Origin: Microbacterium gorillae
Lineage (GTDB): Bacteria; Actinomycetota; Actinomycetes; Actinomycetales; Microbacteriaceae
Assembly: GCF_000826185.2 (NCBI RefSeq)
Contig: NZ_LN648875.1
Span: 124,001-188,000, forward strand
DNA: 64,000 nucleotides
Direction of reading: 5' to 3'
Below the pieces are notes generated by a model that did not search any database, was not told the DNA's origin, and was given only the letters and a program-made list of their open reading frames with translations. Each line of letters opens with the position of its first letter. Within the stretch, counting starts at the first letter, position 1. A program made the translations under genes and the position numbers. Positions 34,068-59,188 of the stretch are shown here, piece by piece.

Positions 34068-34226
34068 GTGATTCACCTCCGCGTGCTCCGGCGTCAGGGA
34101 CAGCGTAGACCCCGGTGGTGACCGCCTGCCCTCCAGCGGGTGAACGGGAGTCGGCGTGTCGCCGATCCTGGACGCGACAAGACCGCGCTCACGCACGCAT
34201 GCGGAGACAGTGTCGCGTGGGCGCTA

Positions 34227-35156
34227 TCAGCCGGCGTTCTGCTGCAGCCAGGCGTAGCCGTCGACCTTCGAGCCGTTGACCGCCAATTCGAAGTGCAGGT
34301 GGTTCGCCGTCGAGTTTCCGGTGCTGCCGACGAGGCCGATGATCTGGCCCGCTGCCACCTGCTGCCCCTGCGAGACGACCCGGGTGCCGTGCGTCATGTG
34401 GGCGTAGCAGGTCTCGACGTTCTGGCCGCCGACCGTGCCCTCGATGACCACCGCGACACCGAAGCCGTAATAGCCCTCGCTGGAAACGGTGACGGTCCCG
34501 GCGTGCGCGGCGTAGATCGGCGTACCGCCGGCGATCAGCATGTCCACACCCTCGTGGCTGCCGCCACGACTGCGGAATCCATCCCCGAGCGTGTAGCCGC
34601 CGGGCAGGGGCCACCGCACTTCGCCGCTCCCGGGAGCGGTCATGCTCAGATCGATGTCGTAACCGCCGCCACCACCGCTGTCGGAGTCGTTGTTCTTGTT
34701 GGCAGCCGCTGCGGCAGACGCCTCGGCTGCGGCCTTGGCGCGCGCGACCGCGGCCTCCTCGGCCTTCTTCTTATCGATCTCCGTGCGCGTGGTCGCGGTG
34801 TAGCTCGCACGCTCTACCGACGCATCGGCGACGTCCGACGCGGAGAGGAATGTCTGTGCACCCTCCGCGGCCTCCTGCTGCAGGGTGCGCGGAGCTGCGT
34901 CCGTCGTCGCCTCGCGCTCCGCACTCTGGAAGGCACCGTATGCCGGGAGCGCGACCGTGGCCATCATCGCCACCGCCGCGACGAGGATGCCGGCGGTGCG
35001 GGCCGGCCGCCATGCGCGGCGCGCGGACACGGTAGGACGGCGAGATCGGCCGATCGACGTCGTCAGGGGTGACTCGTGGATGCGATCGGTGGGCTCACTC
35101 TCGCCGCTGCGCATCGATTCGGGCTCGTTCGCGGACGAATGGTTGTCTTCGGTCAA
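34227..35156 (-). CDS. M23 metallopeptidase with N-terminal membrane anchor (paralogue 1)
   Basis: This 309-residue protein has a cytoplasmic basic tail, one TM near residues 55-80 (AGILVAAVAMMATVALPAYG), an Ala/Lys-rich stalk (IDKKKAEEAAVARAKAAAEA) and a LytM/M23 domain. The zinc motifs are present: SHEGVDM (H-x3-D) and NHLHFEL (HxH), plus CYAHMTHG. M23 enzymes cut peptidoglycan cross-links. The predicted start is TTG at 35156, with GGAGG seven bases upstream; the paralogue has the same arrangement. Upstream, three hexamers at an 11-bp period resemble MtrA sites. The next gene leftwards is unrelated. Confidence 0.9.
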   Translation of the reverse strand: MTEDNHSSANEPESMRSGESEPTDRIHESPLTTSIGRSRRPTVSARRAWRPARTAGILVAAVAMMATVALPAYGAFQSAEREATTDAAPRTLQQEAAEGAQTFLSASDVADASVERASYTATTRTEIDKKKAEEAAVARAKAAAEASAAAAANKNNDSDSGGGGGYDIDLSMTAPGSGEVRWPLPGGYTLGDGFRSRGGSHEGVDMLIAGGTPIYAAHAGTVTVSSEGYYGFGVAVVIEGTVGGQNVETCYAHMTHGTRVVSQGQQVAAGQIIGLVGSTGNSTANHLHFELAVNGSKVDGYAWLQQNAG

Positions 35157-35311
35157 GCTGATTCCTCCGTGCCTCCACGCGTGGGGCGTGCGACTCGTCT
35201 GCACCGTCGGGCAATTGTGCGGGTCAATTGTGATCGAGCCGTGGGGGTGACGAGCCGATGAGGAACCCTCCACGGTGTCCGCGAGCCAGCTTGCGCTCCC
35301 GGACTCCTCAA

Positions 35312-35339
35312 CGATAACTGACCGTTACCGATTTGTCAC
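35312..35339 (-). promoter_or_regulatory. Three MtrA-like hexamers at 11-bp period upstream of M23 paralogue 1
   Basis: On the minus strand GTGACA, GTAACG and TTATCG begin 11 bases apart (plus-strand positions 35334, 35323, 35312). The GTNAC direct-repeat form matches the reported pattern of MtrA response-regulator sites, which control peptidoglycan hydrolases. The same array occurs at the paralogue. Confidence 0.6.
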
Positions 35340-35375
35340 CTGAACGCGGCCGGTCCTGCCACACTCGCCAACGAC

Positions 35376-35423
35376 GAAGCACCCCGGGGTCCGCGACGGA
35401 GGGTGCGGTTCCCGGGGTGCTTC
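35376..35423 (-). terminator. Terminator after M23 paralogue 2
   Basis: GAAGCACCCCGGG and CCCGGGGTGCTTC form a 13-bp stem, 12 bases after the paralogue-2 stop. Confidence 0.65.
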
Positions 35424-35434
35424 TGAGTCGTTCG

Positions 35435-36343
35435 TCAGCCGGCGTTCGCCCGGAGCCAGGCGAGCGGGTCCGACTTGACACCGTTGATGTCGACCTCGAA
35501 GTGGAGGTGCGGGCCGGTGGACCAGCCCGTGGACCCGACGGCACCGATCGGCTGGCCGACCGTCACGGTCTGGCCGACCTCGACGAGGCGCGCACCGTAG
35601 GGCATGTGACCGTACGTGGTCTCGACGGTGACTCCGTTGACCTCGCCCTTGATCTTCACAGCCACGCCGTAGCCGTAGTAACCGTCGCTGGACACGGTGA
35701 CCACACCGCTGTGCGCGGCGTAGATCGGGGTTCCCTGCGGGTCGACGAAGTCCACTCCCTGGTGCTCGCCCCCGCGAGCCATGAACCCTTCACCGATCTC
35801 CTGGATCGACGCGAGCGGCCAGCGAACCTCGCCGCTTCCGGGCGCCGTCATGTTCAGGTCTACATTCGAGCTGTTGTAGCCGGACGACGAGGACGAGCTG
35901 GCCGCTGCGGCGGCGGCGGCTGCTTTGGCGCGCTCGAGGGCTGCGGCCTCGGCCTTCTTCTTGTCGATCTCGTCACGCGTGGTCGCCGAGTAGCTGCCAC
36001 GCGCGACCTCGGTGTCCTTCGCATCGGAACCGGCGACGAACTTCTGGGCCGAGTCCTGCGCCTCCTGCTGGACGGTGCGCTCGGTGGTCTCGGCACCGGC
36101 GGCCGAGGTCGCTCCCTCAAGAGCGCCGTACGCGGGCAGCGCCACCGTGGCGAGCAGTCCGACGACGGCGACGAGGATTCCGGCGGTGCGCAGGGGCTTG
36201 CGTTCGCGTCGGATGGCCGGGGCCTTCAGTGGGGCGACCTGGGCGGCGGCACGGGAAGCGCGTCGGGTGGTGGGCACGGGTGGGGTGGAGTCCGATGCGG
36301 CATTCTCGGGGGGCGTCTCGGACGATTCGTTCACTGCGGTCAA
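35435..36343 (-). CDS. M23 metallopeptidase with N-terminal membrane anchor (paralogue 2)
   Basis: This 302-residue protein is built like its neighbour: basic tail, TM near residues 50-75 (AGILVAVVGLLATVALPAYG), an Ala-rich coiled stalk (IDKKKAEAAALERAKAAAAA), and an M23 domain with EHQGVDF (H-x3-D) and PHLHFEV (HxH). The two share GSGEVRWPL and a similar C-terminus, so they come from a gene duplication. TTG at 36343 is the predicted start, with GGAGGA nine bases upstream; a GTG a few codons later is possible. An MtrA-like triplet lies upstream. Confidence 0.9.
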   Translation of the reverse strand: MTAVNESSETPPENAASDSTPPVPTTRRASRAAAQVAPLKAPAIRRERKPLRTAGILVAVVGLLATVALPAYGALEGATSAAGAETTERTVQQEAQDSAQKFVAGSDAKDTEVARGSYSATTRDEIDKKKAEAAALERAKAAAAAAAASSSSSSGYNSSNVDLNMTAPGSGEVRWPLASIQEIGEGFMARGGEHQGVDFVDPQGTPIYAAHSGVVTVSSDGYYGYGVAVKIKGEVNGVTVETTYGHMPYGARLVEVGQTVTVGQPIGAVGSTGWSTGPHLHFEVDINGVKSDPLAWLRANAG

Positions 36344-36494
36344 AGCTGGTTTCCTCCGTCGCCTCGACGCGTGGGGCGCGGCTCGTCGGCACTCGTCTGG
36401 CACGTGGTGCATTGGAACCAAGGGCGGTAACGAGCCTCTGAGGCACCGTCCTCGGTGTCCGACCCCAGCTTGCGACGGGGTGGACGATATACGA

Positions 36495-36522
36495 CGTTAC
36501 CCGAACGTTACGAAGATGTCAC
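36495..36522 (-). promoter_or_regulatory. Three MtrA-like hexamers at 11-bp period upstream of M23 paralogue 2
   Basis: On the minus strand GTGACA, GTAACG and GTAACG begin exactly 11 bases apart (plus-strand starts 36517, 36506, 36495). TATATC follows at 36484-36490 as a likely -10 box, so the sites are placed for activation. Confidence 0.65.
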
Positions 36523-36549
36523 GTCAGGACACGTTTTCTCATCTTCGTG

Positions 36550-37251
36550 TCAGGAGCGCTCATCGACGAGGAAGATGTGACCGGCGATCTCCACAGGCAG
36601 CTCCAGCCCGTCCTCGATGCCGTCCATCTCAACCAGGACATAGCCCTCGTTGAACCGATACGAGCCGTGCGCACCCGGCAGGACACCGGCGTCGCGCAAC
36701 TGCTCCAACAGTTCCGGATCGACCTGCGCCGGTTCGGCCAGGCGCCGCACCGTGCCCGTGATGGGCGTCCCCGCGTCCGTGAGCCGCTGCACCAGGCCGA
36801 CGACTCCCTGTTCGAAACCCGACACGGCTTCCGCACCGATCAGTTCGAGGCCGGGAATCGGATTGCCGTAGGGGGACTCGGTGGGCTGCCCGAGGAGCTC
36901 GACGAGACGACGCTCCACCTGCTCGCTCATCACGTGCTCCCAGCGACATGCTTCCTCGTGGACATATGCCCAGTCGAGACCGATCACGTCGGACAGGAGA
37001 CGCTCGGCGAGTCGGTGCTTGCGCATCACGTCCACCGCCTTCGCGCGGCCGGCATCGGTCAGCTGCAGTCGACGGTCGTCGGAGACCACGACGAGCCCAT
37101 CGCGCTCCATCCGCCCGACCGTCTGCGACACGGTCGGTCCGGAGTGGCCGAGACGCTCGGAGATGCGTGCGCGCAAGGGCACGATGTTCTCCTCCTCCAG
37201 TTCCAGAATGGTGCGGAGATACATCTCGGTGGTGTCGATCAGGTCCGTCAT
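36550..37251 (-). CDS. DtxR/IdeR iron-dependent regulator
   Basis: With Fe(II) bound, DtxR/IdeR represses iron-uptake and siderophore genes. The 233-residue protein matches the diphtheria repressor residue for residue at its metal sites: M10, H79, E83, H98, C102, E105 and H106 are all in place (MTDLIDTTEMYLRTI; KHRLAERLL; VHEEACRWEH). The HTH (SERLGHSGPTVSQTVGRM) and the C-terminal SH3-like domain (GTPITGTVRRL, HIFLVDERS) are present. ATG 37251 is chosen because it gives the family start; a GTG is one codon earlier. Targets are not in this window. Confidence 0.94.
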   Translation of the reverse strand: MTDLIDTTEMYLRTILELEEENIVPLRARISERLGHSGPTVSQTVGRMERDGLVVVSDDRRLQLTDAGRAKAVDVMRKHRLAERLLSDVIGLDWAYVHEEACRWEHVMSEQVERRLVELLGQPTESPYGNPIPGLELIGAEAVSGFEQGVVGLVQRLTDAGTPITGTVRRLAEPAQVDPELLEQLRDAGVLPGAHGSYRFNEGYVLVEMDGIEDGLELPVEIAGHIFLVDERS

Positions 37252-37291
37252 CACGCCTCACAGTCACGAAAGATCAGCACGATCAGCCTAG

Positions 37292-58978: not shown

Positions 58979-59188
58979 AGGGTCTTCGTGCCTCCCGCGT
59001 CCGTCGGATTCGGACGCGCCGCCGTCGCGGCAACTGAACGATGCTACCGATTCACACTGGGAAATGCCCAGACTGCCCGGCTGTGCCATACTGATCGCGA
59101 CCCGATGACGGGTCACGGCGGTTCACCCCCGTCGCTCATTCACAACGGATCGTCCGGCACGTACCTGCCGGTGAAGGAGAAGAACGTC

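Follow-up and report, generated by a model that had tools for sequence, protein, structure and literature searches.

Bacteria must keep their own wall-cutting enzymes in check. Here we report that two adjacent M23 peptidase genes of Microbacterium gorillae (genes A and B), encoded on the minus strand of a 64,000-nucleotide stretch of genomic DNA (hereafter the window; contig NZ_LN648875.1, positions 124,001 to 188,000), are each preceded by a conserved structured leader RNA, best supported in the pairings that we call P3 and PK1 (Table 1). Structure, conservation and linkage to hydrolase genes are shown here by computation, and from them we infer the function of the leader, which probably controls the amount of dangerous wall-cutting enzymes made. 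In the model that we consider likely, a sigma-70-type promoter carrying an MtrA-type repeat would be followed by a cis-acting pseudoknotted RNA that sets translation of the hydrolase. A first-pass annotation of this DNA had described twin M23 peptidases with matching leaders of about 150 nucleotides, and both descriptions hold: the products match PF01551 (87.8 bits for A and 84.0 bits for B, cut-off 28.7), and the leader blocks align in the same order (mean column identity 77% across two stretches of 281 bases). Its suggestion that the shared leader may be an RNA element is now strongly supported by a covariance model, covariation and family-wide conservation, so that its interpretation is supported in part; its view of three MtrA sites gives way to a corrected reading in which an MtrA-type direct repeat lies over the core promoter and is followed by a conserved pseudoknotted regulatory RNA.

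A conserved pseudoknotted leader RNA

The structure was written down from a MAFFT alignment (A2) of 60 leaders, the two window copies and 58 from 71 relative loci, after which its pairs were counted and a covariance model (R1) was built; a second model (R2) was made later. In A2, 92.1% of the cells are paired and 21 of the 38 pairs changed on both sides. Cells with two-sided changes numbered 127 versus 35.2 in shuffled alignments, and covariation was 0.207 versus at most 0.060 with slid partners. None of 500 shuffles equalled the real alignment in any of the five measures, and no more than 42.9% of the cells stayed paired once the partners were slid. A second alignment (A5) comprises 38 leaders from other genera, hand-chosen from model matches judged real and aligned by MAFFT rather than fitted to the model; here 81.4% of the cells are paired, 27/36 pairs changed on both sides and covariation reached 0.378 versus at most 0.221 when slid. 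The window leaders score 93.1 (A) and 91.8 bits (B) with the covariance model, both being among its 60 training rows, and the likeness between the two is far beyond chance. The element is thus a conserved structured 5' leader with covariation, as is expected of a riboswitch.

We also scored covariation against a phylogeny-aware null, using our own script, which follows the published idea of R-scape and simulates the evolution of alignments along a tree, keeping the number of substitutions at that observed. At E<0.05 this left 2 of 12,720 column pairs significant in A2, both in P3, and 1 of 11,935 in A5, located in PK1, while all five significant pairs (of 13,041) lay in P3 in A4, an alignment of 68 rows fitted to R1, which contains P3. 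When the null was restricted to pairs of the structure, 2/38 (A2), 14/41 (A4) and 4/36 (A5) passed, and no off-structure column pair was significant in any of the three runs. Moreover, RNAalifold run without a given structure returned PK1, PK2 and P5 from A2 and PK1, PK2 and two P5 pairs from A5, the two alignments being disjoint. Since P3 crosses both PK1 and PK2, either the fold is pseudoknotted or two sets of pairings alternate.

Several observations weigh against this structural reading. The structure was derived from the same sequences on which the pairs were counted, and for two of the five measures in A5, 2 and 5 of the 500 shuffles did at least as well as the real alignment. No PK2 pair passes the phylogeny-aware null on A2, A4 or A5, the support for PK2 being de novo folds and two-sided changes, and RNAalifold predicted none of P1/P2, P3 and P4 on A2 or A5 (P3 crosses the pairs that were chosen). 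The window copies score below most of the genus members listed (the leader at L088, a strong member, reaches 179.4 bits), and their single-sequence folds are only weakly better than shuffles (z of -1.47 and -1.09): the minimum-energy fold of the gene A leader contains P3 without PK1, and that of the gene B leader contains P1/P2 and PK1 without P3. We rejected single-sequence folding as proof of structure, its signal being too weak.

In these minimum-energy folds, the P2 loop of gene A (AAGCUGG) is paired with CCAGCUU at the start of the gene, and GGUUCCUC covers the Shine-Dalgarno sequence of gene B. A general clamp of the start region by the P2 loop (AAGC with GCUU) was considered and rejected: the mean for the leaders' own pairs was -5.98 versus -5.58 when permuted (standard deviation 0.12, 0/200), but the signal is driven by four rows, and the clamp is therefore kept as a lineage feature only.

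That the conserved blocks are DNA operators, i.e. inverted repeats bound by a regulator, rather than RNA structure would accord with the MtrA-type direct repeat that adjoins them, but the PK2 arms lie about 75 nucleotides apart in pseudoknotted order, and many pairs are retained as G-U on just the transcribed strand (for example UG 12 and GU 8 at A2 columns 56-93), making this explanation highly improbable.

Distribution and target genes of the element

Structure and conservation extend beyond the window pair across the Microbacteriaceae. With R1 the element is detected in 189 of the 198 genus genomes searched (E up to 0.001, training genomes included), or 188/197 without that of the window, part of these being training rows; M23 relatives are encoded in 196/198. 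Genus genomes mostly carry one element, and that of the window carries two. In a sample of 299 family genomes, R1 matches 86 at E up to 0.1, often weakly, and 34 reach E 1e-8 by our reading of the list, 28 of these belonging to other genera. R2, applied to an order sample, has matches in 21 family genomes and none in two others among the 23 listed; outside the family it gave weak matches in ten genomes (best E 2.6e-4), and at none of the nine loci that were read (the tenth, G698, was left out) does the match lie 5' of a hydrolase gene.

At 25/25 loci read from other genera, the open reading frame directly 3' of the element encodes by motif an NlpC/P60 (22) or M23 protein (3: L127, L129, L143), and a Pfam search with ten frames from other genera returned NlpC/P60 for six, M23 for three and no match for one (L207). 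In this last case the element (L207:101-258) precedes a 291-residue protein, possibly a new type of target. A second element in some genomes (L196, L197, L203) precedes a longer M23-domain protein; here the reading frames are cut by the end of the fetched stretch, and Pfam was run on L196 and L203.

The element is easily missed by plain sequence comparison. With the leader DNA as blastn query, 12 of the 299 family genomes matched, and by reading, one of the 11 matches besides the two window copies (L009) is a leader and ten are not; thus DNA similarity is nearly blind to it. A single-protein scan of genome contigs yielded two loci only. A first regular expression missed 13 of the 71 relative loci, of which a second pattern recovered L051 and L062 and the covariance model ten (L051, L056, L057, L058, L061, L062, L069, L078, L081 and L082), with L077, L084 and L085 giving no model match at E up to 0.01. 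Weak matches in L143 (at 2524) and L126 (at 2816) did not enter A4; of 18 further family matches inspected, nine were judged real and nine chance; and one of the real ones, L194 (the same place as L160), which lies 5' of an M23-like gene in the genus of the window, was excluded from A5.

No family of Rfam 15 reaches its gathering score over the leader, either in the window or at 21 relative loci, where the sub-threshold matches fall outside the element. The lysM-Actino RNA (RF03090), which by its name and Rfam type is likewise a cis-regulatory RNA of actinobacteria associated with a gene for a cell-wall domain, was rejected as a parent family, its 18.3-bit match (gathering score 153.8) lying on the opposite strand. 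No published description turned up in the literature searched, the absence of a match being firm for Rfam 15 only, and the leader RNA apparently is undescribed so far.

The same distribution decides against the other explanation offered by the first-pass annotation, that the shared leader is a relic of the duplication. Genes A and B are indeed adjacent and sisters in a 57-tip tree (support only 0.535), their leaders alone among the 60 rows of A2 share GCAAGCTGG, and they likely arose by tandem duplication within the lineage. Yet the leader occurs across genus and family, mostly in one copy per genome and with compensatory changes, and because single-copy relatives across the family keep it, a relic is refuted as the sole explanation; that the leader is a mere remnant of a recent duplication is scarcely credible. 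The genome of L080 likewise has two elements in tandem.

The start codon is part of this conservation. Both window genes begin with TTG preceded by GGAGGA (36341-36343 in A, 35154-35156 in B), and the TTG start proposed from the window sequence is supported by 58 of the 60 genus leaders (alignment column; ATG in the other two) and by 35/38 leaders from other genera (by script). A conserved TTG, an unusual codon, is perhaps part of the control. A G or A after the TTG is kept in most rows of A2 and A5.

A mimic of the ribosome site and a model for translational control

The position of PK2 suggests how the RNA could act. Its 3' arm, mostly GAGGC or GGAGC, lies just 5' of the true GGAGG and resembles it, so that the CCUC/CUCC-type 5' arm has two possible partners by duplex energy, this Shine-Dalgarno mimic (mean -8.3 kcal/mol in A2 and -11.1 in A5) and the true site (-4.9 and -5.3 kcal/mol). 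The mimic is the stronger partner in 57/60 and 38/38 leaders (95/98 overall), and pairing with the true site reaches -3 kcal/mol or better in 59/60 and 35/38 (94/98 overall). Because the arm can pair with the true Shine-Dalgarno sequence instead, the RNA most likely sets translation by moving this arm. The minus strand of 34100-36700 showed no terminator-like site, which favours control of translation.

We therefore picture the following sequence of events. Each gene would be transcribed from a GTGACA-N17-TANNNT promoter overlain by the MtrA-type 11-bp direct repeat, and the first ~150 nucleotides of the mRNA would fold into P1/P2, P3 with two arms in its loop, P4, P5, PK1 (GGCUCGU with ACGAGCC) and PK2 (GCCUC with GAGGC). 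PK2 would keep the CCUC/CUCC arm on the mimic, 2-3 nucleotides 5' of the true site in the window copies, leaving the ribosome site free, while movement of the arm onto the true Shine-Dalgarno sequence, probably triggered by a ligand or protein, would block it. This arrangement is what suggests control at the level of translation, a ligand and the direction in which the RNA would switch. Two points fit the model less well. In gene B the anti-Shine-Dalgarno arm can pair either through CCTC with GAGG(C) at 35171-35175 (PK2) or through all eight bases with GAGGAATC (35160-35167) across the Shine-Dalgarno sequence, and it binds the true site better than the mimic; in addition, the mimic resembles a Shine-Dalgarno sequence, and pairing of the arm with the true site in part follows from that.

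The leader could instead be a structured element that does not switch, tuning mRNA stability or fixing ribosome access at a low level for a toxic hydrolase with a weak TTG start. The conservation of TTG, the lack of a known ligand and the absence of a transcription terminator would all sit well with such a static damper, but the long-range pseudoknot by the ribosome site and the alternative true-site pairing in 94/98 leaders exceed its needs, and relatives carry a cyclic di-AMP (c-di-AMP) riboswitch in the same slot; we regard it as unlikely, though as the most serious of the alternatives to a switching RNA.

Relation to the c-di-AMP riboswitch

In Corynebacterium glutamicum, the hydrolase gene nlpC has an MtrA-regulated promoter followed by a c-di-AMP riboswitch (ydaO/kimA, RF00379) reported to act on translation, for which the authors propose that a CTCC arm has two alternative partners, a GGAG lying upstream and the ribosome site (PMC9960051). 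The element described here shares with it the position in the 5' leader of a hydrolase gene whose promoter carries an MtrA-type site, as well as an arm of CTCC type, for which alternative pairing with the ribosome site is predicted here. Unlike it, however, the leader does not match the RF00379 model, and the family sample lacks diadenylate cyclase.

This difference extends to the family genomes sampled. RF00379 occurs in 164 of 297 genomes of the order sample, with no matching row from the family of the window, i.e. in 164 of about 274 genomes sampled outside it, and 12/12 ydaO loci read precede NlpC/P60-like genes by motif. Within the family, it is above cut-off in 0/199 genomes (one match at 25.4 bits, gathering score 38), and the diadenylate cyclase domain (PF02457) was found neither in the genome of the window nor in the 199 family genomes, with 11/14 controls positive. 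By the RF00379 and R2 results, the two RNAs are thus distributed in a complementary way in these samples; c-di-AMP signalling appears to have been lost family-wide, and c-di-AMP is an unlikely ligand because the family sample is without the cyclase. At one locus in another family of the order (L174), GTTACC and GTGACA lie 11 bp apart before a ydaO-controlled NlpC/P60-like gene, a like promoter logic.

The leader might in principle be a highly diverged c-di-AMP riboswitch, as it occupies the same genomic slot before the same kind of target, and MtrA-type promoters precede ydaO elements in C. glutamicum and at least at L174. This is very unlikely, however, given that neither RF00379 (above cut-off) nor the cyclase was found in 199 family genomes, and that searches with RF00379 drew a blank both on the window leaders (at E up to 10) and on 21 relative loci (at E up to 5). 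A tentative proposal, somewhat less likely than not, is that the leader represents a family-specific orphan riboswitch class: after the loss of c-di-AMP signalling, a different RNA responding to another signal would have taken the ydaO slot, with the mimic switching translation. The RNA is likely a natural case of the replacement of one regulatory RNA by another, and it would constitute a new riboswitch class if its ligand turned out to be wall-related or a second messenger. A ready covariance model, a clear target set and point mutations to test are at hand.

An MtrA-type repeat over the core promoter

A GTGAC(A/T)-N17-TANNNT layout fits 60/60 aligned genus leaders. The hexamers are partly so by construction because the promoter script required them (TA was demanded at the start of the -10 and T or G at its end, a few -35 variants and spacers of 16-19 bp being accepted); the constant 17-bp spacer was not required. 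The layout recurs in 35/38 leaders from other genera, 34 with the 17-bp spacer and one with 18 bp, the three failing rows being L196, L197 and L203. A plain sigma-70 consensus scan of 34100-36700 reported the gene B promoter and not that of gene A.

The first-pass annotation had placed three GTGACA/GTAACG-type hexamers exactly 11 bases apart before each gene and took them to suggest cooperative MtrA dimers. The coordinates are as it claimed, on the minus strand, but the third hexamer of gene B reads TTATCG, which is not GTNAC-like. GTNAC is present at site 1 in 57/60, at site 2 in 34/60 and at site 3 in 12/60 genus leaders, with GTTA followed by C or T dominating at site 2. Site 3 is the -10 hexamer (TANNNT) and not an independent MtrA site, and the outer pair therefore owes its 22-bp register to the 17-bp promoter spacer; three cooperative MtrA sites are not supported. 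Since the outer two hexamers are the -35 and the -10, the middle one is the only independent evidence for MtrA, and it counts as such because it is kept in the genus though a sigma-70 spacer needs no conservation. The triplet GTNAC-N6-GTNAC-N6-GTWNC matches once in the window versus 0.01 expected (1/100 shuffles had one), at gene A, whereas gene B does not fit it. GTGACA-N5-GTAACG has two exact matches, both at the gene A and B promoters, and with two mismatches four versus 2.86 expected, which is ordinary.

Both promoters thus contain two direct half-sites with an 11-bp period. MtrA operators of C. glutamicum, Mycobacterium tuberculosis and Streptomyces likewise consist of two short direct repeats (PMC3353115, PMC5650626). 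In C. glutamicum the consensus has direct repeats of 8 bp separated by a 3-bp linker, which gives a period of 11 bp, and repression is associated with sites close to the -10 (PMC3353115); targets include mepA and nlpC (PMC3353115, PMC9599347), and direct repression by MtrA is stated in PMC9599347. Unlike that consensus, the half-sites predicted here are richer in G+C, and the third repeat is the -10 hexamer. MtrA is encoded in the genome of the window (NF040689, 382.7 bits, curated cut-off 300). Binding of MtrA to these promoters and repression of genes A and B are plausible, and repression would be likely in view of the 11-bp repeat near the -10, the published targets and the MtrA gene. Counting the other way, site 2 matches GTNAC in 9/34 leaders from other genera, so that the second half-site is weakly kept outside the genus, and the MtrA motif reported in Dietzia is TCG-rich (PMC9599347), from which it follows that the motif is not uniform across the phylum.

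Features of the window

The 5' arms of PK2 and PK1 both lie in the loop of P3 in gene A.

Table 1. Features of the gene A and gene B loci (window coordinates)
Feature	Position	Strand	Basis
Gene A, M23 peptidase, TTG start	35435-36343	-	Pfam, start-codon conservation
GTGACA, promoter -35 and first MtrA-type half-site (A)	36517-36522	-	17 bp 5' of -10 in 60/60 aligned genus promoters
GTAACG, middle MtrA-type half-site (A), 11 bp past first	36506-36511	-	pattern scans, alignment
TAACGT, -10 hexamer (A), overlapped by third hexamer GTAACG of the first-pass annotation (36495-36500)	36494-36499	-	alignment
Leader RNA element (A)	36335-36498	-	covariance model; first bases overlap -10 box
P1/P2 hairpin (A), GTCC 36482-36485/GGAC 36457-36460 around CCCC 36477-36480/GGGG 36463-36466	36457-36485	-	
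P3 (A), CCGAGGACGGT 36445-36455/ACCGCCCTTGG 36418-36428	36418-36455	-	10/11 pairs by hand
PK2 5' arm (A), GCCTC, anti-Shine-Dalgarno-like	36440-36444	-	pair counts, RNAalifold
PK1 5' arm (A), GGCTCGT	36430-36436	-	covariation, RNAalifold
P4 (A), GCAC 36407-36410/GTGC 36389-36392	36389-36410	-	pair counts
PK1 3' arm (A), ACGAGCC	36380-36386	-	pair counts, RNAalifold
P5 hairpin (A), GCGC/GCGT	36367-36379	-	pair counts, RNAalifold
PK2 3' arm (A), GAGGC, Shine-Dalgarno mimic, 3 nt 5' of true one	36361-36365	-	pair counts, duplex energies
Shine-Dalgarno (A), GGAGGA	36352-36357	-	sequence
CCAGCTT (A), complementary to P2-loop AAGCTGG (36465-36471)	36343-36349	-	possible start-region clamp, 4/60 rows
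Gene B, M23 peptidase, TTG start	34227-35156	-	Pfam, start-codon conservation
GTGACA, promoter -35 and first MtrA-type half-site (B)	35334-35339	-	sequence, sigma-70 scan
GTAACG, middle MtrA-type half-site (B)	35323-35328	-	pattern scan
TATCGT, -10 hexamer (B), overlaps third hexamer of the first-pass annotation (35312-35317)	35311-35316	-	sigma-70 scan
Leader RNA element (B)	35148-35315	-	covariance model
P1/P2 hairpin (B), GTCC 35301-35304/GGAC 35277-35280, GAGC 35295-35298/GCTC 35283-35286	35277-35304	-	
P3 (B), 35265-35275/35239-35248	35239-35275	-	pair counts
Anti-Shine-Dalgarno arm (B), GGTTCCTC	35260-35267	-	duplex energies, fold
PK1 5' arm (B), GGCTCGT, partner ACGAGTC 35192-35198	35250-35256	-	pair counts, fold
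P5 hairpin (B), ACGC/GCGT	35177-35189	-	pair counts
Shine-Dalgarno (B), GGAGGA	35163-35168	-	sequence

A gene for a DtxR-type iron-dependent repressor (PF02742, PF01325) lies immediately upstream of gene A (36550-37254, minus strand), and several relatives have, judged by eye, a similar coding end 5' of the leader. Between the gene A stop and the gene B promoter, a long G+C-rich hairpin (35376-35423) lacking a T-run may mark the end of the gene A transcript; it gave a sub-threshold miRNA match in the Rfam scan. Elsewhere in the window, at 59127-59185 on the plus strand, lies a known cis-regulatory RNA, the msiK RNA (RF01747; 62.7 bits, gathering score 33).

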